DNA of 64,000 nucleotides from Turicibacter sanguinis (GTDB lineage Bacteria > Bacillota_I > Bacilli_A > MOL361 > Turicibacteraceae). The stretch is taken from NCBI RefSeq assembly GCF_013046825.1, contig NZ_CP053187.1:1911501-1975500 (forward strand), read 5' to 3'. The notes beneath the pieces were generated by a model. The model was not told the origin of the DNA. It searched no databases and saw only the letters and a program-made list of their open reading frames with translations. Below, piece after piece: positions 16,930-26,059 of this stretch (the stretch's first letter is position 1; each line of letters opens with the position of its first letter). Position numbers and translations under genes: made by a program.

Positions 16930-17022
16930 ATGTTCGGTAATGGTTGTGCATTTATCTTAGTATTATTCATCCTATTAGTTATCATCGGATGTGGATGCGG
17001 ATGCGGATTTGGAGCTTTCTAA
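16930..17022 (+). CDS. YjcZ-family small spore protein, copy 1
   Basis: A 30-residue protein follows AAAGGAG with normal spacing. It has a short polar start (MFGNGCAF), one hydrophobic stretch (ILVLFILLVIIG) and a Cys-Gly tail (CGCGCGFGAF). This pattern is that of the YjcZ family of tiny sporulation proteins found in Bacilli. It would be a membrane- or coat-associated peptide rich in cysteine. It is the first of three tandem paralogues behind a sigma-K-like promoter. Confidence 0.8.
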   Translation: MFGNGCAFILVLFILLVIIGCGCGCGFGAF

Positions 17023-17117
17023 TTAAGCTGTAAATCAATTCCTAGATAAAGAAAGTTTCAATGTTCTTTTCTTAAAAAGAACAAAAAATTAGTGATTATT
17101 AAGGGAGCGAACTTGTT

Positions 17118-17210
17118 ATGTGTGGAAATAGCTGTGCATTTATTTTAGTCTTATTCATCTTATTAGTGATTATTGCATGCGGATGTGGATGCGGATTTGG
17201 AGCTTTCTAA
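17118..17210 (+). CDS. YjcZ-family small spore protein, copy 2
   Basis: This 30-residue paralogue (starting MCGNSCAF, ending CGCGCGFGAF) is almost identical to copy 1 in its hydrophobic core and tail. GGGAG precedes the ATG by ten bases. The second residue is now Cys, adding one more thiol. It shares its leader sequence with copy 3. Confidence 0.8.
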   Translation: MCGNSCAFILVLFILLVIIACGCGCGFGAF

Positions 17211-17303
17211 TCAGGCTTTAAATTAATTCCTAGATAAAAAGGTTTCAGTGTTCTTTTCTTAAAAGAACAAAAAATTAGTGATTATTAAGGGAGCGAGTTA
17301 GTT

Positions 17304-17393
17304 ATGTGTGGAAATAATTTTGCATTTATTTTAGTCTTATTTATTTTATTAGTAATCATCGGATGCTGCTGTGGTGTTGGACTAGGTTGCTAA
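17304..17393 (+). CDS. YjcZ-family small spore protein, copy 3
   Basis: This 29-residue paralogue keeps the start MCGN and the hydrophobic segment but has diverged at the end (GCCCGVGLGC), with fewer aromatic residues and a triple cysteine. The tail change suggests a distinct role or relaxed constraint. The array ends about 100 bases later in a strong terminator. Confidence 0.78.
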   Translation: MCGNNFAFILVLFILLVIIGCCCGVGLGC

Positions 17394-17524: not shown

Positions 17525-17850
17525 AAAAGGTAACGCCTAATATAGTGTCTGACAATCATCATAACCTTATACTTTAAAATAAGAAAATGTTAAATTGAAC
17601 AAAGGAAATGATCCTATTGATTGTGTTTTTAAATGGTATCTTTTGATGGGAAAGGGACTTTAATTATAAAGGCATGTTCTTTCGACATTTAAGAGTGGGA
17701 AAATGGAAGTATAAAACGATTACAAACAGAGATTGTGTGAAATATTACAGAATGAAAAAATAAATATTATTAATACGTGGATGGCACATTGCAAAGCAAT
17801 AGGGGGTATCGTATAATCTCCTTGAAATCCAAAATAAAGGGGAGGTTATT
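17525..17850 (+). other. Intergenic region upstream of the hydrogenase operon
   Basis: No gene is visible in these 326 bases. The only clear element is the promoter at 17789-17817 with a short inverted repeat (ATTGC AAA GCAAT, 17788-17800) overlapping its -35 box. Confidence 0.6.
17789..17817 (+). promoter_or_regulatory. Promoter of the hydrogenase operon
   Basis: TTGCAA (17789-17794) and a perfect TATAAT (17812-17817) are separated by exactly 17 bases, 33 bases before the first operon gene. An inverted repeat over the -35 box could be an operator. Confidence 0.75.
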
Positions 17851-18327
17851 ATGGAACATACAAGCTTAACATCAGAGAATTTCAATAAGCTAGATGTGTT
17901 TATTCAATCACATTTAAGTGAGACGGAAGGGTTGATGCCAATTTTACATGAGGCGCAAGATATTTTTGGTTACATTCCATTAGAAGTTCAAAAGTTTATT
18001 TCAAATCGCACTGGGATTTCAGTTTCAAGAATTCATGGGGTCGTGACTTTTTATTCTCAATTTTCAACTGAACCAAAAGGTGAAAATGTGATCGGGGTCT
18101 GTTTAGGAACAGCTTGTTATGTAAAAGGTGCTCAAGCAATTTTACAGAAATTCAAAGAGGAATTAGGGATTGAACCTGAACAAACAACATCAGATGGAAA
18201 ATTTTCATTGGTAGCTACAAGATGTATTGGTGCTTGTGGACTAGCACCGGTTATTACAATTAATGACGATGTTTACGGAAAGATGGATGCTTCACAAGTA
18301 TCTAGTATTCTTAAAAAATACAACTAG
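17851..18327 (+). CDS. hydC: NuoE-like [2Fe-2S] thioredoxin-fold subunit of the NADH-linked hydrogenase
   Basis: The 158-residue protein matches the NuoE/HydC/HndA family, the small electron-transfer subunit beside the flavoprotein. Cluster ligands are visible as GTACYVKG (preceded by CLG) near residue 88 and RCIGACG near residue 130, the usual C-x4-C and C-x3-C arrangement. An N-terminal helical region (LMPILHEAQDIFGYIP) is typical. It opens an operon whose later genes supply the NuoF-like and hydrogenase subunits. The ATG follows GGGGAGG. Confidence 0.9.
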   Translation: MEHTSLTSENFNKLDVFIQSHLSETEGLMPILHEAQDIFGYIPLEVQKFISNRTGISVSRIHGVVTFYSQFSTEPKGENVIGVCLGTACYVKGAQAILQKFKEELGIEPEQTTSDGKFSLVATRCIGACGLAPVITINDDVYGKMDASQVSSILKKYN

Positions 18328-18386: not shown

Positions 18387-18731
18387 TTGAAAGTATCAAC
18401 GATTATGAGTCTTCTAGATGCAAAGTGCTTCACTAAATTTCAATTAGATGATGAGATTGAGAGTGCTTTTGCCTGCGATTTGATGAGTGATGTTTTGGCA
18501 TATGTTAATCAAGATATTTTATTGATTACTGGTCTTGCTCATGTACAGACCCTACGTACAGCTGAAATGTTAGATATTAAGTACATTGTATTTGTAAGAG
18601 GAAAGCAACCCAATCAAGAGATGATTGAATTAGCTAAACATCATCATATGATTTTACTAGGAACGCATTTAACGATGTATGAAGCAAGTGGAATTTTATA
18701 TCAAGAGGGATTAGTTGGATTACAAGTCTGA
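18387..18731 (+). CDS. DRTGG-domain protein, first of two in the hydrogenase operon
   Basis: The roughly 114-residue protein matches the DRTGG-domain family (CDLMSDVLA, LLITGLAHVQTLRTAEML, IVFVRGKQPNQEMI). In other proteins this domain sits beside CBS or phosphotransferase domains and may bind a nucleotide or ligand. A TTG start at 18387 was chosen because GGGGGA lies six bases upstream; ATG at 18405 is the alternative. Free-standing DRTGG genes recur in hydrogenase operons of anaerobic Firmicutes, but their task is not established. Confidence 0.75.
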   Translation: MKVSTIMSLLDAKCFTKFQLDDEIESAFACDLMSDVLAYVNQDILLITGLAHVQTLRTAEMLDIKYIVFVRGKQPNQEMIELAKHHHMILLGTHLTMYEASGILYQEGLVGLQV

Positions 18732-18751
18732 TGAAATGGCAGGGTGGCTAA

Positions 18752-19177
18752 ATGAAGAATAATATACGATTTGTGTTTAAAGTAAAAGCAGATGATTTTT
18801 TGAATGCAGGAAAAGTATCGAGTGAAATTAAAAAATACTTGTCTCAGCTTGGGTTGTCTAGAGAACTGATTCGGAAAATTGTCATTTGCTCTTATGAAGC
18901 AGAAGTTAATTTAGTCATTCACTCACTGGGTGGAGACATTGAATTAGAAATTTCAAATTCAGCTATTCATCTATATTCTATTGATCAAGGTCCAGGCATT
19001 GAAAATATTAATTTAGCGATGAAAGCGGGTTTTTCGACTGCATCAGAAAAAGCCCGTGAAATGGGATTTGGTGCCGGAATGGGATTGCCGAATATGAAAA
19101 AACATTCAGATGAGTTTGAAATTAAATCATCGAATGGCGGAACATTTATTCGTATGACATATTTCATTCCTAGTTAG
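18752..19177 (+). CDS. RsbW/SpoIIAB-like GHKL ATPase
   Basis: The 141-residue protein is a single GHKL ATPase domain of the anti-sigma-factor kinase type. The N box appears as SYEAEVNLVIHS near residue 47, the G1 box as DQGPGIEN near 79 and the G2 region as GFGAGMGLPNMKKHSD near 107. These kinases phosphorylate small partners or hold sigma factors. No STAS-domain antagonist or sigma gene is adjacent; its neighbours are DRTGG and hydrogenase-like proteins, so the partner is probably within the operon. Confidence 0.85.
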   Translation: MKNNIRFVFKVKADDFLNAGKVSSEIKKYLSQLGLSRELIRKIVICSYEAEVNLVIHSLGGDIELEISNSAIHLYSIDQGPGIENINLAMKAGFSTASEKAREMGFGAGMGLPNMKKHSDEFEIKSSNGGTFIRMTYFIPS

Positions 19178-19189
19178 GAGGTTAATGAA

Positions 19190-20464
19190 ATGAAAGGATA
19201 TAATCATCGCATTAAAATAAACTTTGATGATTGTATCGGTTGTACACGATGTATGCGTGTTTGTCCTACGGAAGCAATTCGAATTGTCAATGGAAAAGTC
19301 AAATTAATAGAAGAAAAGTGTGTGAATTGCGGAGCATGTTTTACAACTTGCCATGTTCATGCCTTTGACTTAAAAAAAGAGCGATTAGAAGAATTAAATC
19401 AATATCCGTTTAATGTGGCTATTTTACCGATTGCGATTTATGGCATGATAAAAGATTTAGAAGATTTAAATATTGTGTACCAAACGTTATATGATATTGG
19501 ATTCGATGCTGTTTTTGATAGTTCAATTGTTTATGAATGTTTAGGAGAAAAAATTGAATCTTATGTGACAAGTTGCAAGCTGTCTAATATGCCATATATT
19601 TTGACGCACTGTCCCAGTGTGGTCAAACTTATTCAAGTTAAGTATTCTGATTTGAATCATCATCTTGTTCCATTTGATTTTCCAATTGAAATTTGTGCCA
19701 AGTTAATTCGAAAAAGGTATGCAAAGCAACTAAAGATGAATCCAGATGAAGTCGGAATTAGTTATATCAGCGAATGTTTAGCTAATTATATGGAAATAAA
19801 ACAACCGATCGGTAAAAAGGAATCTAATATTAATTTCGTCTTTTTACTTTCAACTATTTTCAAAGATATTTTAAAGCATATTGAAAATGATCCGCCTCAA
19901 ACGCTGAATCACACGGTTTCTTTAAACGGAATTTTATGTGCTAAAGTAGGTGGGATTAGAAGAATTACCCAATTAATTGATTGTTTATCTGTTGATGGAA
20001 TGAATCAAGTGGTTGAAATTTTAGAAAAATTAGATATGGGGCAATTGAATCATATCAATGTTTTAGAGTGTTATGCATGTGTAGGTGGCTGTGTTGGAGG
20101 GACATTCACACTTGAAAATCCATTCATTGCTAAGAGTAAAATTAATCGTCTCGTCAAAAGTGTGATTCCTTCAGATTCGTTGGAAAAACAAATGCTAAAA
20201 GAATTGTCTGATACCTATGATTGGGTATTTGAAAGTGAATTAGAGCATTTTGATATTTCAAAATTAGATGATGATTTCTTTACTTCATTAGTCAAATTAC
20301 AACAGATTAATGACATCTATCATCAGCTCCCAAATATTGATTGTTGTGCATGTGGGTCACCTTCTTGTCGAGCTTTGGCGGAAGATATTGTTGCTGGATT
20401 AAAACGATTAGAGGATTGTATTGTTTTAACACAGAAAAAAAGAGGTGATAATGTTGACACTTAG
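19190..20464 (+). CDS. Hydrogenase-like iron-sulfur protein, probable redox or H2 sensor
   Basis: The 424-residue protein starts with two [4Fe-4S] ferredoxin motifs (CIGCTRCMRVCP and CVNCGACFTTC, about residues 13-55). A hydrogenase large-subunit-like domain follows with recognisable but altered H-cluster loops: THCPS near 138, SECLANYME near 192 and ECYACVGGCVGG near 293. The second loop lacks the PCxAKK form seen in the true hydrogenase of this operon. The C-terminus carries a CCACGSPSC Fe-S motif near 385. This layout resembles sensory group D (HydS-type) proteins rather than a catalytic enzyme. It ends overlapping the second DRTGG gene. Confidence 0.78.
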   Translation: MKGYNHRIKINFDDCIGCTRCMRVCPTEAIRIVNGKVKLIEEKCVNCGACFTTCHVHAFDLKKERLEELNQYPFNVAILPIAIYGMIKDLEDLNIVYQTLYDIGFDAVFDSSIVYECLGEKIESYVTSCKLSNMPYILTHCPSVVKLIQVKYSDLNHHLVPFDFPIEICAKLIRKRYAKQLKMNPDEVGISYISECLANYMEIKQPIGKKESNINFVFLLSTIFKDILKHIENDPPQTLNHTVSLNGILCAKVGGIRRITQLIDCLSVDGMNQVVEILEKLDMGQLNHINVLECYACVGGCVGGTFTLENPFIAKSKINRLVKSVIPSDSLEKQMLKELSDTYDWVFESELEHFDISKLDDDFFTSLVKLQQINDIYHQLPNIDCCACGSPSCRALAEDIVAGLKRLEDCIVLTQKKRGDNVDT

Positions 20465-20783
20465 TCAAGTTTTATTAGATTCAAGATTAACATTAATTTG
20501 TGGTGAAGATTTAGAAATAACACAGGTTGAAGGCTTTTATATTGGTGATTTATTGAGCTTTGTCATGGGAAAAGCGAAAAAAGGCCAGTTATGGCTAACC
20601 GTTCAAGCTCATCCTAATGTGATTGCAATTGCAAGTCTTTTAGAATTAAGTGGGGTTATTGTTTTAGAAGGGGTTAAAATCCCAGAAGAAACCATTCAAT
20701 TAGCAAAAGAGCACAAGATAGCATTGATGCAAACAAATAGTAGTGCAGTTGAAATGATTCAAGCATTACTGTCGTTAAGTTAA
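20451..20783 (+). CDS. DRTGG-domain protein, second of two in the hydrogenase operon
   Basis: The 110-residue protein is another DRTGG-type domain (GDLLSFVMGKAKKGQLWLTV, NVIAIASLLELSGVIVLEG). It is distant in sequence from the first copy, so the pair are not a recent duplication. ATG 20451 lies five bases after AGAGG and overlaps the previous gene by 14 bases; TTG 20454 is an alternative. Coupling to the hydrogenase-like gene suggests a shared complex or pathway. Confidence 0.72.
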   Translation: MLTLSQVLLDSRLTLICGEDLEITQVEGFYIGDLLSFVMGKAKKGQLWLTVQAHPNVIAIASLLELSGVIVLEGVKIPEETIQLAKEHKIALMQTNSSAVEMIQALLSLS

Positions 20784-20786
20784 AGA

Positions 20787-21500
20787 ATGAAGCTGTACTA
20801 TGACTTACATATTCATTCGGCCTTATCACCTTGTGCTGATGAGTCTATGACCCCAAATAATATTGTCTTAATGGCTAAAATTAAAGGTCTCGATATGATT
20901 TCACTGACCGATCATAATAGTGTCAAAAATATGGGACCAGTTGCTAAGATTTGTGAAAAAGAGAATATCTTATTTATTCCAGGTATTGAAATTGAGACCA
21001 TTGAAGGAGTACACCTACTTTGCTATACCGATAGTTTAGAAGCGATGATGAAAATAGGGGAAGTTACTGAAAAACATCTAGGGATGATTGAAAATCGTCC
21101 TGAATTTTTTGGAACTCAGTGGGTCATGAATGAAAAGGATGAAGTGATTGAAAGGGTTAAACCACTGTTAATTCAATCGACCACGCTAACGATTCAAGAT
21201 GTTATTAAATTGGTCCATGAAATAGGAGGTGTTGTCATAGCTGCGCATCTGAATAAAAGAGAACACAGTATTTTGACAAACCTAGGGTTCATTCCTCCAG
21301 ATTTATTAATTGATGGTGTTGAATTAAATGCCTACGTTTTAAAAAAAGATAAAGCCTCGCCTAAATGGGGAGACTATTTAGTTTTTATTAATTCTGATGC
21401 CCATCAATTAGGCGATATCAGTGAAGCTGAAAATGTCATAATTTTAGAAAATAAGTCTCGCTTCGACTTTTTTTCTTATGTTAAGAAGGAGGAGAAATGA
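20787..21500 (+). CDS. PHP-domain metal-dependent phosphoesterase
   Basis: The 237-residue protein carries the PHP motifs: DLHIHSALSPCADE near residue 6, LTDHNSV near 41, PGIEIETIEG near 66 and a final NSDAHQ near 206. These residues would hold a metal site for phosphoester hydrolysis. No strong ribosome-binding site precedes it, so it is probably translated by coupling to the DRTGG gene ending three bases earlier. A role in removing a phosphate or nucleotide signal made by the neighbouring kinase-like proteins is possible but unproven. Confidence 0.82.
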   Translation: MKLYYDLHIHSALSPCADESMTPNNIVLMAKIKGLDMISLTDHNSVKNMGPVAKICEKENILFIPGIEIETIEGVHLLCYTDSLEAMMKIGEVTEKHLGMIENRPEFFGTQWVMNEKDEVIERVKPLLIQSTTLTIQDVIKLVHEIGGVVIAAHLNKREHSILTNLGFIPPDLLIDGVELNAYVLKKDKASPKWGDYLVFINSDAHQLGDISEAENVIILENKSRFDFFSYVKKEEK

Positions 21501-22042
21501 GAGATCTTTCCTTACACTTATTAGATTTAACAATGAACTCGATTCGTGCAAAGGCAACACTCATCGAAATTAAGTTCATTGAATCTAAAAAAAATGATCA
21601 ACTCATCATGGTCATTAAAGATAATGGATGTGGCATGAGTCAAAAGATGTTAGAGCAAGTTAAAAATCCATTTTTTACAACCCGTACGACCCGAAAAGTT
21701 GGACTTGGGATTCCCCTTTTAATGGCGATGTCTTCAAGATGTGAGGGAGACGTCTTCATTCAATCTGAAATCGGGGTTGGGACTGAAGTGAGGAGTACAA
21801 TCAAACTTAGTCATATTGATCGACCTCCTTTTGGTGAGATTCATAATACGATTGCATCTTTAATTTATTTAGAACCAAACATTGATTTTATCTATGAGCA
21901 TCAAAATGATGAGTTAGACTATTTATTTTCTACGCAACTTGTGAAAGAAGTGATCAAGGATTTACCGATTAATCATCAAGAGGTGATGAATTGGATTAAT
22001 AAAGAATTAAAAGAAGGGGATTTTGCCTTCACAACTTACTAA
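21497..22042 (+). CDS. Second GHKL ATPase, histidine-kinase-like
   Basis: The 181-residue protein has a histidine-kinase-type ATPase fold with N box LDLTMNSIRA near residue 9, G1 box DNGCGMS near 43 and G2 region KVGLGIPL near 71. There is no dimerisation domain with a phospho-acceptor His and no sensor region, so it is not a complete sensor kinase. About 75 residues of unassigned sequence follow the ATPase core. It overlaps the PHP gene by four bases. Confidence 0.8.
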   Translation: MRDLSLHLLDLTMNSIRAKATLIEIKFIESKKNDQLIMVIKDNGCGMSQKMLEQVKNPFFTTRTTRKVGLGIPLLMAMSSRCEGDVFIQSEIGVGTEVRSTIKLSHIDRPPFGEIHNTIASLIYLEPNIDFIYEHQNDELDYLFSTQLVKEVIKDLPINHQEVMNWINKELKEGDFAFTTY

Positions 22043-22060: not shown

Positions 22061-22429
22061 ATGAAAACTTTAAAGGAATTAGAAGAAATCCGTGAAAAAA
22101 CCTTAAAGAATTTACAATTGCGCGATCATGAAGGGAAAGAAGTTCGTGTGGTTGTTGGAATGGGGACTTGCGGTATTTCAGCAGGGGCACGTCCTGTTTT
22201 GAATGAATTAGTTAATGAAGTGAATCAAAGACATCTTGAACATGTCGTGATTACTCAAACAGGATGTATTGGAATGTGTACATATGAGCCGATGTTTGAT
22301 GTTTTTGATGCATTTGGGAAAACAACTTATGTTCATATGACACCTGAAAAAGTTAAAAAAGTAGTTTTAGAACATTTAGTTAATGGAAACATCGTATCAG
22401 AATATACAATTGGTGCAGTGACGAACTAG
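22061..22429 (+). CDS. [2Fe-2S] thioredoxin-like ferredoxin, HndB/HydD-type
   Basis: The 122-residue protein contains GTCGISAGA near residue 35 and QTGCIGMCTYEP near 68, together supplying the four cysteines of a thioredoxin-fold [2Fe-2S] domain. Similar small subunits (HndB type) sit between the NuoE- and NuoF-like genes of NADH- or NADP-linked hydrogenases. It directly precedes the NuoF-like gene and should pass electrons in that complex. A clear GGGG site precedes the ATG. Confidence 0.82.
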   Translation: MKTLKELEEIREKTLKNLQLRDHEGKEVRVVVGMGTCGISAGARPVLNELVNEVNQRHLEHVVITQTGCIGMCTYEPMFDVFDAFGKTTYVHMTPEKVKKVVLEHLVNGNIVSEYTIGAVTN

Positions 22430-22453: not shown

Positions 22454-24274
22454 ATGCAGTTTTATCGGTCACATGTTTTGATTTGTGGGGGAACAGGTTG
22501 TACATCATCAAAATCAAAGGAAATTAAACATGAACTTGTTAATCATCTTGTACGGTTAGGACTTGATAAAGAGGTACAAGTGGTTATGACTGGGTGCTTT
22601 GGTCTTTGTGAAGCTGGACCTATCGTTATCGTTTATCCAGAAGGAACGTTCTATTCTAAAGTTCAAGTTAGCGATGCAGTACGTATTGCAGAAGAACACT
22701 TATTAAAAGGTCGTATTATTAAAGATCTTTTATTCAAAGAAGCTTTAGAAGAAGGTGAAATTAAAGCAGTTAATGAAGTAGAATTTTATGCCAAACAAAC
22801 AAGGGTTGCTCTGAGAAATTGTGGGAATATTAACCCAGAAAATATCGATGAGTATATTGCACATGATGGATATCGTGCCTTAGGAAAAGCTTTGACTGAA
22901 ATGACACCAGAACAAGTCATTGAAGAAGTTAAAAAATCAGGATTAAGAGGCCGTGGTGGTGGTGGTTTTACAACAGGTCTTAAATGGGAGTTTACTTATA
23001 AATCAAAATCAGATAAAAAATATGTGGCCTGTAATGCAGATGAAGGGGATCCTGGAGCCTTTATGGATCGTTCTATTTTAGAGGGAGATCCACACTCAGT
23101 TTTGGAAGCAATGGCTTTGGCTGGATACGCTATCGGGGCTGATACAGGATATATTTATGTTCGCGCTGAATATCCGATTGCTGTTAAACGGTTAAGCATT
23201 GCCATTGAACAAGCACGAGAATATGGATTACTTGGTCATGGAATTTTCGGAACAGATTTTAACTTTGATATTGAGTTACGACTAGGTGCGGGAGCTTTTG
23301 TTTGCGGTGAAGAAACAGCTTTAATTGAATCAATTGAAGGAAAACGCGGGATGCCAAGGCCAAGACCACCATTTCCAGCTGTTAAAGGGGTATGGGGAAA
23401 ACCAACGTTATTAAACAATGTTGAAACTTATGCCAATGTTCCACTCATTATTTTAAAAGGTGGAGAGTGGTTCGCAAGGATTGGGACTGAAAAATCAAAA
23501 GGAACAAAAGTTTTTGCTTTAGGTGGAAAGATTAACAACACCGGATTAGTTGAAATTCCAATGGGAACAACATTAAAAGAAGTGATTTACGGTATTGGAG
23601 GAGGGATTCCAAACGGTAAAAAATTTAAAGCTGCACAAACTGGAGGACCATCAGGAGGATGTCTAACAGAAGAACTGTTAGATACAGAAATTGACTTTGA
23701 TAATTTAGTGAAGCTTGGATCTATGATGGGATCAGGTGGAATGATTATTATGGATGAAGATAACTGTATGGTTGATATCGCAAGATTTTATTTAGATTTT
23801 ACATGTGATGAGTCATGTGGAAAATGTACACCTTGTCGTGAAGGAACAAAACGCATGATGGAAATTTTAAATAGAATTACCGAAGGAAAAGGTGAGCTTT
23901 CCGATTTAGATGAGTTAGAACATTTAGCAGAATATATTAAATCAAGTTCTTTATGTGGACTCGGTCAAACAGCACCCAATCCAGTTCTATCAACACTCTC
24001 TCATTTTAAGGATGAGTATTTAGCTCATGTTGTTGATAAACGCTGTCCATCAGGGGTTTGTACGAAGTTATTAGAATACTTTATTACCGATAAATGTATT
24101 GGATGTGGAATGTGCGCCAAAGCCTGCCCAGCATCATGTATTAAACCGGTTGGTGAAGTAGTGAATGAAAAAACAGGACGTCGTCGTCATGTGATTAATA
24201 AAGTAGATTGCATTAAGTGTGGGGCTTGTATGGCTACTTGTCCACCAAAAATTAGTGCAATTGTAAAGCGATAG
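22454..24274 (+). CDS. hydB: NuoF-like flavoprotein subunit of the NADH-linked hydrogenase
   Basis: The 606-residue protein starts with another thioredoxin-like [2Fe-2S] domain (CGGTGCTSS near residue 11, TGCFGLCEAGP near 56). The FMN/NADH module follows, with GLRGRGGGGFTTG near 172 and NADEGDPGAFMDR near 195, and then the ESCGKCTPCREGTKR cluster site near 456. The C-terminus has two [4Fe-4S] ferredoxin motifs (CIGCGMCAKACP, CIKCGACMATCP). This is the layout of HydB in trimeric, electron-bifurcating hydrogenases, where it oxidises or reduces NAD(H). Such complexes couple NADH and ferredoxin to H2. Confidence 0.92.
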   Translation: MQFYRSHVLICGGTGCTSSKSKEIKHELVNHLVRLGLDKEVQVVMTGCFGLCEAGPIVIVYPEGTFYSKVQVSDAVRIAEEHLLKGRIIKDLLFKEALEEGEIKAVNEVEFYAKQTRVALRNCGNINPENIDEYIAHDGYRALGKALTEMTPEQVIEEVKKSGLRGRGGGGFTTGLKWEFTYKSKSDKKYVACNADEGDPGAFMDRSILEGDPHSVLEAMALAGYAIGADTGYIYVRAEYPIAVKRLSIAIEQAREYGLLGHGIFGTDFNFDIELRLGAGAFVCGEETALIESIEGKRGMPRPRPPFPAVKGVWGKPTLLNNVETYANVPLIILKGGEWFARIGTEKSKGTKVFALGGKINNTGLVEIPMGTTLKEVIYGIGGGIPNGKKFKAAQTGGPSGGCLTEELLDTEIDFDNLVKLGSMMGSGGMIIMDEDNCMVDIARFYLDFTCDESCGKCTPCREGTKRMMEILNRITEGKGELSDLDELEHLAEYIKSSSLCGLGQTAPNPVLSTLSHFKDEYLAHVVDKRCPSGVCTKLLEYFITDKCIGCGMCAKACPASCIKPVGEVVNEKTGRRRHVINKVDCIKCGACMATCPPKISAIVKR

Positions 24275-24286
24275 GGGGGATTAGAA

Positions 24287-26059
24287 ATGGAATTAGTCAA
24301 TCTCACAATGAATGGAATAGCTTTGCAAGTTCCGTCTCATTATACGATTTTAGAAGCTGCACGCGAAGCGGGAATTAAAATTCCAACCTTATGTTTTTTA
24401 AAAGATTTAAATGAAACAGGTGCTTGTCGAGTGTGTGTGGTTGAAGTAGAAGGGGCTCGTTCGCTTGTGACGGCTTGTAATATGAAAGTTTCGGAGGGAA
24501 TGAAGGTTCACACTCATTCAAGTAAAGTGTTAGATTCAAGAAGAATGACGGTTGAGTTACTACTTGCTAATCATAATGTCGAGTGTACAACTTGTGTGCG
24601 AAATCATAACTGTGAACTAAAACAATTATCAAATGATTTAGGATGTACGGGTCGTCATTTTAAAGGGGAACGTCGAGAAACGATTTATCGAGATGATTCA
24701 TATTCAATTGTGCGTGATACATCAAAATGTATTTTATGTGGACGTTGTGTTGCCGCATGTCGTGAAAAAGCAGGGGTTGAGGTTTTAGCTTTTAATCAAC
24801 GTGGGTTCAAAACTTATATCGGTCCAGCGTTTGAAGCATGTATGGATGACGCAGGTTGCATTCATTGTGGACAATGTATTGCCGCTTGTCCAACCGCCGC
24901 ATTGCAAGAACATTCAAATATTAATCAAGTTGTTGAAGCTATCAACGATCCAAATAAAATGGTTGTTTTTCAAGTTGCCCCTGCTGTTCGCGCAGCACTT
25001 GGAGAAGAATTTAATTTACCAATTGGAACATGTGTAACTGGAAAAATTGCGGCTGCACTTCGTCGTATTGGAGGACCAAGCAGTAAAGTTTTTGATACAA
25101 ACTTTAGTGCTGACTTAACGATTATGGAAGAAGCTTATGAATTGGTTAATCGAATTCAACAGGGAGGAGTCCTTCCAATGATTACATCTTGTTCTCCAGG
25201 ATGGATTCGATTGGCGGAACAATATATGCCAGATGTCTTACCACATCTTTCAACTTGTAAATCACCACAACAAATGTTTGGAGCTATTTTAAAGTCTTAT
25301 TGGGCAGAAAAAAATAATATTGATAAATCATCGATCTATTGTGTTTCTGTTATGCCGTGTGTAGCTAAAAAAACTGAATTAAAACGTGAAGAATTAGCGG
25401 TTAATGGAATAGCGGATGTTGATGCATCCATCACAACGCGAGAATTGGCTCGAATGATTCGCATGTATGGATTAGATTTTAATGCATTACCAGATGAAAC
25501 ATTTGATCAACCACTTGGTGAATATAGTGGTGCTGGAACTATTTTTGGGGCAACAGGTGGTGTAATGGAAGCGGCCTTAAGAACAGCAGCAGATGTATTA
25601 AGTGGTCAATCTTTAGAACAAATTGAATATGAAGCAGTACGCGGTGTTGAAGGCGTTAAAGAGGCAACCTTAACCGTTGGCGATTTAACTTTGAATGTAG
25701 CAGTTATTCATGGTGGAAAACAAGCGCTTGAAACAGTGAATCAGTTATTAACGAGTGATAAACCTTACCATTTTATTGAAGTGATGGGATGTAGTGGCGG
25801 ATGTGTTGCTGGAGGAGGACAACCTCATATTCCAGCTCACTTATTTAATAAAGGATTAGATATACGAGAAGAACGAGCAAAAGCTCTTTATGAAGATGAT
25901 AAAGCCCAAGTCATTCGAAAATCGCATGAAAATCCTGTGATTCAAAACGTATATGCAGAATATTTAGGAACACCAAACAGTCATTTAGCTCATGAGTTAC
26001 TACATACTCATTATGAGAAAAAAGACTTGTATATAAAAAAGTTAAACGAAACAAACTAA
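24287..26059 (+). CDS. hydA: NADH-dependent [FeFe]-hydrogenase catalytic subunit
   Basis: The 590-residue protein begins with a [2Fe-2S] ferredoxin domain (CFLKDLNETGACRVC, about residues 36-65) and a His-Cys3 region (CTTCVRNHNC, about residue 105). Two [4Fe-4S] motifs follow near 147-205. All three H-cluster loops are intact: TSCSPGW near 299, MPCVAKKTE near 355 and GCSGGCVAGGGQP near 502. It should make or split H2. The length and domain order fit group A trimeric enzymes. The maturases HydE, HydF and HydG are not in the window, so they must be elsewhere if the enzyme is active. Confidence 0.94.
   Translation: MELVNLTMNGIALQVPSHYTILEAAREAGIKIPTLCFLKDLNETGACRVCVVEVEGARSLVTACNMKVSEGMKVHTHSSKVLDSRRMTVELLLANHNVECTTCVRNHNCELKQLSNDLGCTGRHFKGERRETIYRDDSYSIVRDTSKCILCGRCVAACREKAGVEVLAFNQRGFKTYIGPAFEACMDDAGCIHCGQCIAACPTAALQEHSNINQVVEAINDPNKMVVFQVAPAVRAALGEEFNLPIGTCVTGKIAAALRRIGGPSSKVFDTNFSADLTIMEEAYELVNRIQQGGVLPMITSCSPGWIRLAEQYMPDVLPHLSTCKSPQQMFGAILKSYWAEKNNIDKSSIYCVSVMPCVAKKTELKREELAVNGIADVDASITTRELARMIRMYGLDFNALPDETFDQPLGEYSGAGTIFGATGGVMEAALRTAADVLSGQSLEQIEYEAVRGVEGVKEATLTVGDLTLNVAVIHGGKQALETVNQLLTSDKPYHFIEVMGCSGGCVAGGGQPHIPAHLFNKGLDIREERAKALYEDDKAQVIRKSHENPVIQNVYAEYLGTPNSHLAHELLHTHYEKKDLYIKKLNETN

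Follow-up and report, generated by a model that had tools for sequence, protein, structure and literature searches.

A conserved gene set around a putative sensory [FeFe]-hydrogenase, linked to HydABC and Rnf operons

Group D sensory [FeFe]-hydrogenases have already been purified and studied spectroscopically, with their partners and purpose stated to be unknown. They are regarded as putative H2 sensors, for which the signaling partners are likewise stated to be unknown (PMC13104023). The gene of one of them, TamHydS, has been noted to neighbor a bifurcating hydrogenase as well as genes for an “AraC” regulator and a histidine-kinase-like ATPase (PMC8163306). Thermoanaerobacter genomes encode, upstream of the bifurcating hydrogenase, a histidine kinase together with a hydrogenase resembling group D (PMC3608648). 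Here we describe a locus in a 64,000-nucleotide stretch of the Turicibacter sanguinis genome (contig NZ_CP053187.1, positions 1,911,501 to 1,975,500; “the window”). In this locus, the genes of a NuoE-like, a NuoF-like, and a group A6 HydA subunit share one operon, which by sequence is of the electron-bifurcating HydABC type. Between NuoE and NuoF, it encodes a group D-like hydrogenase (S), two DRTGG proteins (d1 and d2), two GHKL ATPases (W and K), and a PHP phosphoesterase (P). We read the set as a sensor/transmitter block, d1-W-S-P, which d2 and K would connect to ferredoxin:NAD enzymes of two kinds. It names dedicated partners for group D sensory hydrogenases and is found in about half of the Clostridia genomes sampled.

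Like TamHydS, S of the window has a bifurcating hydrogenase and a histidine-kinase-like ATPase as neighbors, whereas the papers on TamHydS (PMC8163306, PMC13104023) describe neither a linkage to Rnf nor d1, W, d2, P, and K as its complete set of partners. Group C sensors (TmHydS, Ruminococcus albus HydS, and hfsB) also stand beside HydABC and have kinase- and phosphatase-type partners. However, they feature a PAS domain and, at the loci seen here, a PP2C/SpoIIE-like partner, whereas the set of the window is devoid of PAS and relies on W, the DRTGG proteins, and a PHP protein. The hydCEDBA operon of A. woodii and the hydC-tte0891-hydDBA operon of Caldanaerobacter (PMC3315566, PMC4694547) share the order NuoE-K-t-NuoF-HydA with the window, where t is a small thioredoxin-like protein and K takes the position of hydE or tte0891. 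In contrast to these operons, which consist of five genes only as reported, the window has d1-W-S-d2-P inserted between NuoE and K. We liken K to A. woodii HydE (Awo_c27000) by its operon position and its architecture as a stand-alone histidine-kinase-like ATPase. W shares the GHKL fold signature and the catalytic Glu and Asn with the SpoIIAB-SpoIIAA-SpoIIE and RsbW-RsbV-RsbU switches, but the set contains no sigma factor or STAS protein, and its phosphatase is of the PHP and not of the PP2C type. The parts are known singly and the neighborhood in part. In the open-licence literature, neither the full set, nor its split into a sensor block and enzyme-linked genes, nor the Rnf linkage was found described.

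Co-inheritance of the gene set

All six genes are present in identical order in 13 of 13 other Bacilli genomes with a short S, and the arrangement is therefore not due to chance. Among 196 Clostridia genomes, which were drawn evenly, S is found in 99, W in 98, P in 96, and K in 102. S and W occur together in 97 genomes, S without W in two, and W without S in one, and all P-bearing genomes (96/96) possess S. W matches lie ≤3 kb from S in 96 of 100 cases, and P matches lie ≤4 kb from S in 90 of 97. W is essentially confined to genomes with S. Fisher values for this co-occurrence are far below 1e-30 but are descriptive only, because the sampled genomes are related. Some missing genes reflect contig breaks (e.g. 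in genomes G333 and G449).

At 68 of the 73 loci with adequate flanks (from the Bacilli set and 80 named loci of the species-level collection), d1 and W adjoin S, and the other five are all of the Alkaliphilus type. The position of d1, W, S, d2, and P relative to HydABC varies, the genes being found upstream, downstream, divergent, inside, or away from it. A census of 97 W loci placed 59 beside HydABC-type genes, 3 beside Rnf only, and 16 beside neither, with 19 cut by a contig end. Most of the genomes with a detached module that were checked retain a full or partial group A6 HydA elsewhere. Two genomes carry a GGDEF-EAL protein directly after the detached d1-W-S-d2-P set (L171:10137-13205 and L270:5672-8785).

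K is a member of the hydrogenase operon itself, with or without S. In 91 sampled genomes with a retrieved K locus, its neighbor is NuoF in 81 and RnfC in 3; in another 3 it adjoins NuoE or t where the contig ends, and in the last 4 it has none of these neighbors. No S is found at the K locus in 24 of the 81 genomes with K beside NuoF/HydB. Sampled genomes that lack S, or have it at a distance from K, show the order NuoE-K-t-NuoF-HydA as far as the contigs extend. Strict co-occurrence of the six genes, the comparison suggested in the preliminary description of this DNA, is hence seen in part: d1, W, S, and P are not independent of each other, but K is largely independent of S.

The same division is apparent from gene losses. 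Two genomes of the window's genus (G001 and G002) retain a syntenic HydABC operon with intact d2, K, t, NuoF, and HydA. The genes d1, W, S, and P are all missing from G002; G001 has lost W and S and keeps d1 and P as pseudogenes with in-frame stops and a frameshift. Because of these losses, we place d1, W, S, and P in a single functional block and group d2 and K with the enzyme; the pseudogenes and losses also suggest that the window carries the fuller, older state of the operon. The remnants of d1 and of the PHP gene in the hydrogenase operon of a congener are located at L276:4186-4440 and L276:4858-5390, in an operon that has no W or S but an intact d2 and K. Taken over the loci, d1, W, and P travel with the sensor, and K, sometimes together with d2, travels with the enzyme. 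The six genes had been proposed to form a complete sensing and response circuit. Their strong conservation as a set is in keeping with part of this proposal, but we reject one closed six-gene circuit: K is a gene of the hydrogenase operon, and neither K nor d2 is lost along with d1, W, S, and P. In a Symbiobacterium metagenome-assembled genome (L074), S and d2 are naturally fused, which suggests that the two proteins may be in contact.

The hydrogenase-like protein S and its partners

S comprises two N-terminal ferredoxin-type [4Fe-4S] motifs, followed by the H-domain and a C-terminal FeS domain, which is the domain plan of TamHydS (PMC8163306, PMC13104023). The equivalents of the cubane ligands C300, C355, C499, and C503 are C141, C196, C297, and C301 of S, invariant in 94 of 94 homologues, and all twelve positions of the accessory-cluster cysteines are kept in at least 92 of the 94. 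As in TamHydS, the proton-transfer cysteine C299 is lost (H140 in S; A, F, S, H, Q, Y, or D in the homologues listed), M353 is replaced by Ser or Thr (S194 in S; T or S in 82 of 94), and a C-terminal Cx2Cx4Cx16C motif is found (C385, C388, C393, and C410). TamHydS is without a PAS domain; similarly, Pfam gave no PAS match in S, which stops 14 amino acids past C410. Judged by these features, S is a group D/M2e “putative sensory” [FeFe]-hydrogenase of the TamHydS type, with all testable hallmarks present. Since S belongs to this sensory type, sensing, as the preliminary description had suspected, is the leading reading, and S is probably a sensor of H2 or of redox state. Assignment of S to the group C sensory [FeFe]-hydrogenases was rejected because the PAS domain following the C-terminal cluster is not present. 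A group C HydS with a PAS domain, followed by a SpoIIE-like phosphatase gene, is encoded elsewhere in the window's genome (L055, G000:C1:2958000-2977000, near 2966000-2970000), so that both types of putative sensory hydrogenase are found in this organism.

Across 94–180 homologues, W, K, P, and S show next to no variation at their catalytic or ligand positions. In W, residues E49, N53, D78, G80, G82, and G105-G111 (motifs DxGxG and GFGAGMGL) are intact, and the catalytic residues do not vary among 180 distinct homologues. W is closest to SpoIIAB, with TIGR01925 as its best curated match and 1til as a further match, but reaches only 48.5 bits against the TIGR01925 cut-off of 135. None of the six proteins contains a sigma factor, STAS, or DNA-binding domain according to Pfam. 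A true SpoIIAB orthologue was therefore rejected for W, given the score below the cut-off and a set without sigma or STAS partners. K consists of 181 amino acids, with the HATPase domain starting at residue 8. Asn14 of K is invariant, position 10 is acidic, and the DxGxG box is present. It has no HisKA domain; because a phospho-accepting histidine dimerization domain is missing, a two-component histidine kinase was rejected for K, and histidine-kinase activity is not indicated. The two ATPases had been taken for ATP-using kinases, which is not supported in that form: W retains the SpoIIAB-type catalytic residues, but the set offers it no sigma or STAS partner, and K has the architecture just described.

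In P, the metal-site residues H8, H10, H43, E68, H76, H154, D204, and H206 are invariant barring gaps (165 homologues). At the place of the usual PHP SDG motif, P reads SPC(A/G)xxxM, with C16 invariant and the Asp not at that place. The AF2 model of P (pLDDT 91.5) has EndoQ as the nearest solved fold, and RNase AM and a nucleoside bisphosphatase-type enzyme are among the top matches. A CpsB/YwqE-type protein-tyrosine phosphatase is unsupported, as none is among the fold matches listed and nuclease and nucleotidase folds come first. TALE matches from the PHP sequence search are spurious and stem from repeat matches within the insert.

With 19.9 and 21.0 bits, d1 and d2 of the window remain under the Pfam DRTGG (PF07085) cut-off of 25.2 bits. 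However, DRTGG is matched by 10 of 13 members of the d1 family and 13 of 13 of the d2 family (best E values of 2e-10 and 2e-8), and the model of d1 assumes the DRTGG fold (TM 0.86 to 2ioj, with further matches to a CBS-DRTGG pyrophosphatase and HPr kinase). Pfam, the family members, and the d1 model thus agree with the naming of two DRTGG proteins, two GHKL ATPases, a PHP protein, and a hydrogenase-like Fe-S protein in the preliminary description. The DRTGG proteins possess an invariant serine (S34 of d1 and S37 of d2). This residue is attractive as a phosphosite for W, which we do not claim, as other DRTGG domains have a serine at the equivalent position. The gene next to TamHydS that was reported as an “AraC” regulator may be a DRTGG gene.

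Linkage to Rnf and a possible route of control

In six genomes of Alkaliphilus, Anaerovirgula, Natronincola, and Anoxynatronum, d1-W-d2-P-K is positioned directly before rnfCDGEAB, with S at a separate locus. The order d1-W-S-d2-P-K-rnf is seen in three sampled genomes, and S-d2-K-rnf at the contig start in one (L120). One genome has K-rnf alone, with d1-W-S-d2 elsewhere (L189, L190). Rnf was identified by curated models for L184, L192, and L205, and for the others by the same gene layout together with weak RnfC- and RnfB-type matches. The Alkaliphilus-type S was considered as a stand-alone gene near an Nqr-like operon, which was rejected because its partners are located elsewhere in the genome, before Rnf. 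Such unlinked S genes are found at L068, L071, and L072, upstream of an Nqr-like operon with RnfD/NqrB-type and NqrF-like genes. At three further loci (L215, L226, and L229), NuoE-K-t-NuoF leads into rnfC...rnfB without an intervening HydA match, possibly a HydBC-type diaphorase linked to Rnf.

Because it also fronts Rnf operons, the gene set probably governs the ferredoxin/NADH balance rather than the hydrogenase alone. A circuit for the hydrogenase, as initially proposed, is borne out in part only, since Rnf operons too are preceded by the set and neither enzyme adjoins it at 16 of 78 informative loci. The unexpected Rnf linkage makes a general role in ferredoxin/NADH control testable. HydABC and Rnf, the recurrent targets, both contain a Complex1_51K subunit (NuoF and RnfC, respectively), through which ferredoxin and NAD(H) are joined.

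Our leading hypothesis, which we rate at slightly less than even odds, is that the gene set constitutes a control module that responds to H2 or redox state and acts on ferredoxin:NAD(H) enzymes after translation. It builds on the observed composition and order of the set, its co-inheritance and co-loss, the intact active-site residues, the linkage to HydABC and Rnf, and the one S-d2 fusion. From these, we infer a ligand for S, a kinase activity for W, a substrate for P, and an action of d2 and K on NuoF or RnfC. S, as a low-activity group D hydrogenase, would read H2 or the redox state of its own Fe-S clusters and pass its state to the dedicated SpoIIAB-like ATPase or kinase W and to d1, whereas P might reverse the signal or consume a phosphorylated intermediate. 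The output would be provided by d2, which probably contacts S, and by the GHKL ATPase K, whose gene accompanies those of the target enzyme. Both may act on the flavin/NADH subunit (NuoF in HydABC and RnfC in Rnf) and so adjust the activity of the finished enzyme. A post-translational route is favored because the set contains no DNA-binding, sigma, or STAS gene. That it forms a portable H2/redox governor, which via d2 and K plugs into electron-bifurcating HydABC and the Rnf ion pump, both energy-converting enzymes, through the shared NuoF/RnfC-type NADH subunit, is possible but on balance doubtful. If true, such a governor would give anaerobes one shared valve that acts post-translationally at the ferredoxin/NAD(H) node. 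A general role in ferredoxin/NADH control would bear on the H2, ethanol, and acetate yields of industrial and gut anaerobes.

Several points weigh against the control module. The fold of P is nearer to nucleases and nucleotide phosphatases than to PHP protein-tyrosine phosphatases. Neither HydABC nor Rnf is alongside at the 16 of 78 loci mentioned above, and the counts from related genomes are not independent events. In T. saccharolyticum, the batch H2 yield of hyd knockouts was reportedly unaffected (PMC3492117). Finally, H2 binding and turnover are uncertain for S of the window's clade, because the conserved Lys358, next to the di-iron site, is replaced by Asn.

This last point leads to a reading in which S senses redox only (Fe-S potential or ferredoxin state) and not H2, at least in the window's Haloplasmatales-like clade; it is compatible with the control module except for the signal. 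In contrast to TamHydS, S of the window has N199 at the K358 position, and this Asn is found solely in the window and seven Haloplasmatales-like loci (8 of 94 homologues), with the cubane ligands kept. The linkage to Rnf, an enzyme making no H2, also argues for redox sensing. However, most homologues of S keep Lys or Arg at this position, and TamHydS turns over H2 and shifts its secondary structure with it (PMC13104023). We consider redox-only sensing conceivable but rather unlikely.

Somewhat less probable is a role in assembly, in which W and K are chaperone-like GHKL ATPases that, with the DRTGG proteins and with S as an Fe-S scaffold, build or repair the Fe-S and flavin sites of HydABC and Rnf. 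K accompanies HydABC even without S, the two enzymes have the Complex1_51K subunit in common, and A. woodii HydE, at the same operon position, is no component of the active enzyme but has been suggested to function in “assembly or signalling” (PMC3315566). On the other hand, S retains the full hydrogenase cluster ligands and TamHydS shows real H2 turnover (PMC8163306), the HydABC operons of congeners without d1, W, S, and P have intact structural genes, and it is not obvious what a PHP phosphoesterase would do during assembly.

A transcriptional partner switch, in which W is an anti-sigma-type kinase, d1 and d2 replace the STAS antagonist, and H2 sensed by S frees a sigma factor that alters hydrogenase or alcohol-dehydrogenase expression, could draw on SpoIIAB as the best curated match of W (TIGR01925; 1til), on the SpoIIE-like gene next to the group C sensor of the window's genome, and on the altered adhE expression upon deletion of the group C-type hfsB (PMC5707799), but is improbable: the set encodes no sigma factor, STAS, or DNA-binding protein, none turns up repeatedly next to those detached modules that were inspected, W scores far under the SpoIIAB cut-off, and the module is tied to enzyme operons and not to a regulator.

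Operon layout and neighboring genes

All six open reading frames (ORFs) between NuoE and NuoF were confirmed at the positions previously given, on the plus strand (Table 1); the gene list was right for these six but had left out t. The tight packing with overlaps was also confirmed, with S and d2 overlapping by 14 nucleotides and P and K by 4. No convincing internal terminator was found in the operon (3 terminator-like sites, 4.5 expected). Given the overlaps and the lack of such a terminator, the operon from NuoE to HydA would fit a single transcription unit. The promoter-like site ahead of NuoE is a consensus match, of which the region contains 45 (38.7 expected).

Table 1. Features of the hydrogenase operon in the window
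Feature	Coordinates	Strand	Remarks
Promoter-like site TTGCAA-17-TATAAT	17789..17817	+	5' of NuoE; consensus match only
NuoE-like subunit (HydC-type)	17851..18327	+	First gene of hydrogenase operon; Pfam 2Fe-2S_thioredx 8.8e-51
d1, DRTGG protein 1	18387..18731	+	TTG start, GGGGGA ahead of start
W, SpoIIAB/RsbW-like GHKL ATPase	18752..19177	+	Pfam HATPase_c_2 above cut-off
S, group D/M2e [FeFe]-hydrogenase-like protein	19190..20464	+	Pfam Fe_hyd_lg_C, Fer4, and FeS
d2, DRTGG protein 2	20451..20783	+	ATG at 20451; alternative GTG at 20445
P, PHP-domain metallo-phosphoesterase	20787..21500	+	Pfam PHP
K, stand-alone GHKL ATPase	21497..22042	+	Pfam HATPase_c; position of A. woodii hydE / Tte0891
t, small thioredoxin-like [2Fe-2S]-family protein, HydD-like	22061..22429	+	Between K and NuoF, HydD position
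NuoF-like subunit (HydB)	22454..24274	+	TIGR01959 2e-153
HydA, group A6 NADH-dependent [FeFe]-hydrogenase catalytic subunit	24287..26059	+	NF040763 846 bits, cut-off 765

HydA (24287-26059) reads TSCSPGW, with a Ser just ahead of the Pro, where CpI has the cubane ligand C300; a Ser of this type is common to 69 of 78 HydA-type ORFs of related loci. Just 5' of the operon, at 16930-17390 of the window, lie three tandem copies of a tiny hydrophobic Cys/Gly-rich ORF (AFILVLFILLVII..GCG type), which we presume to be YjcZ-like.

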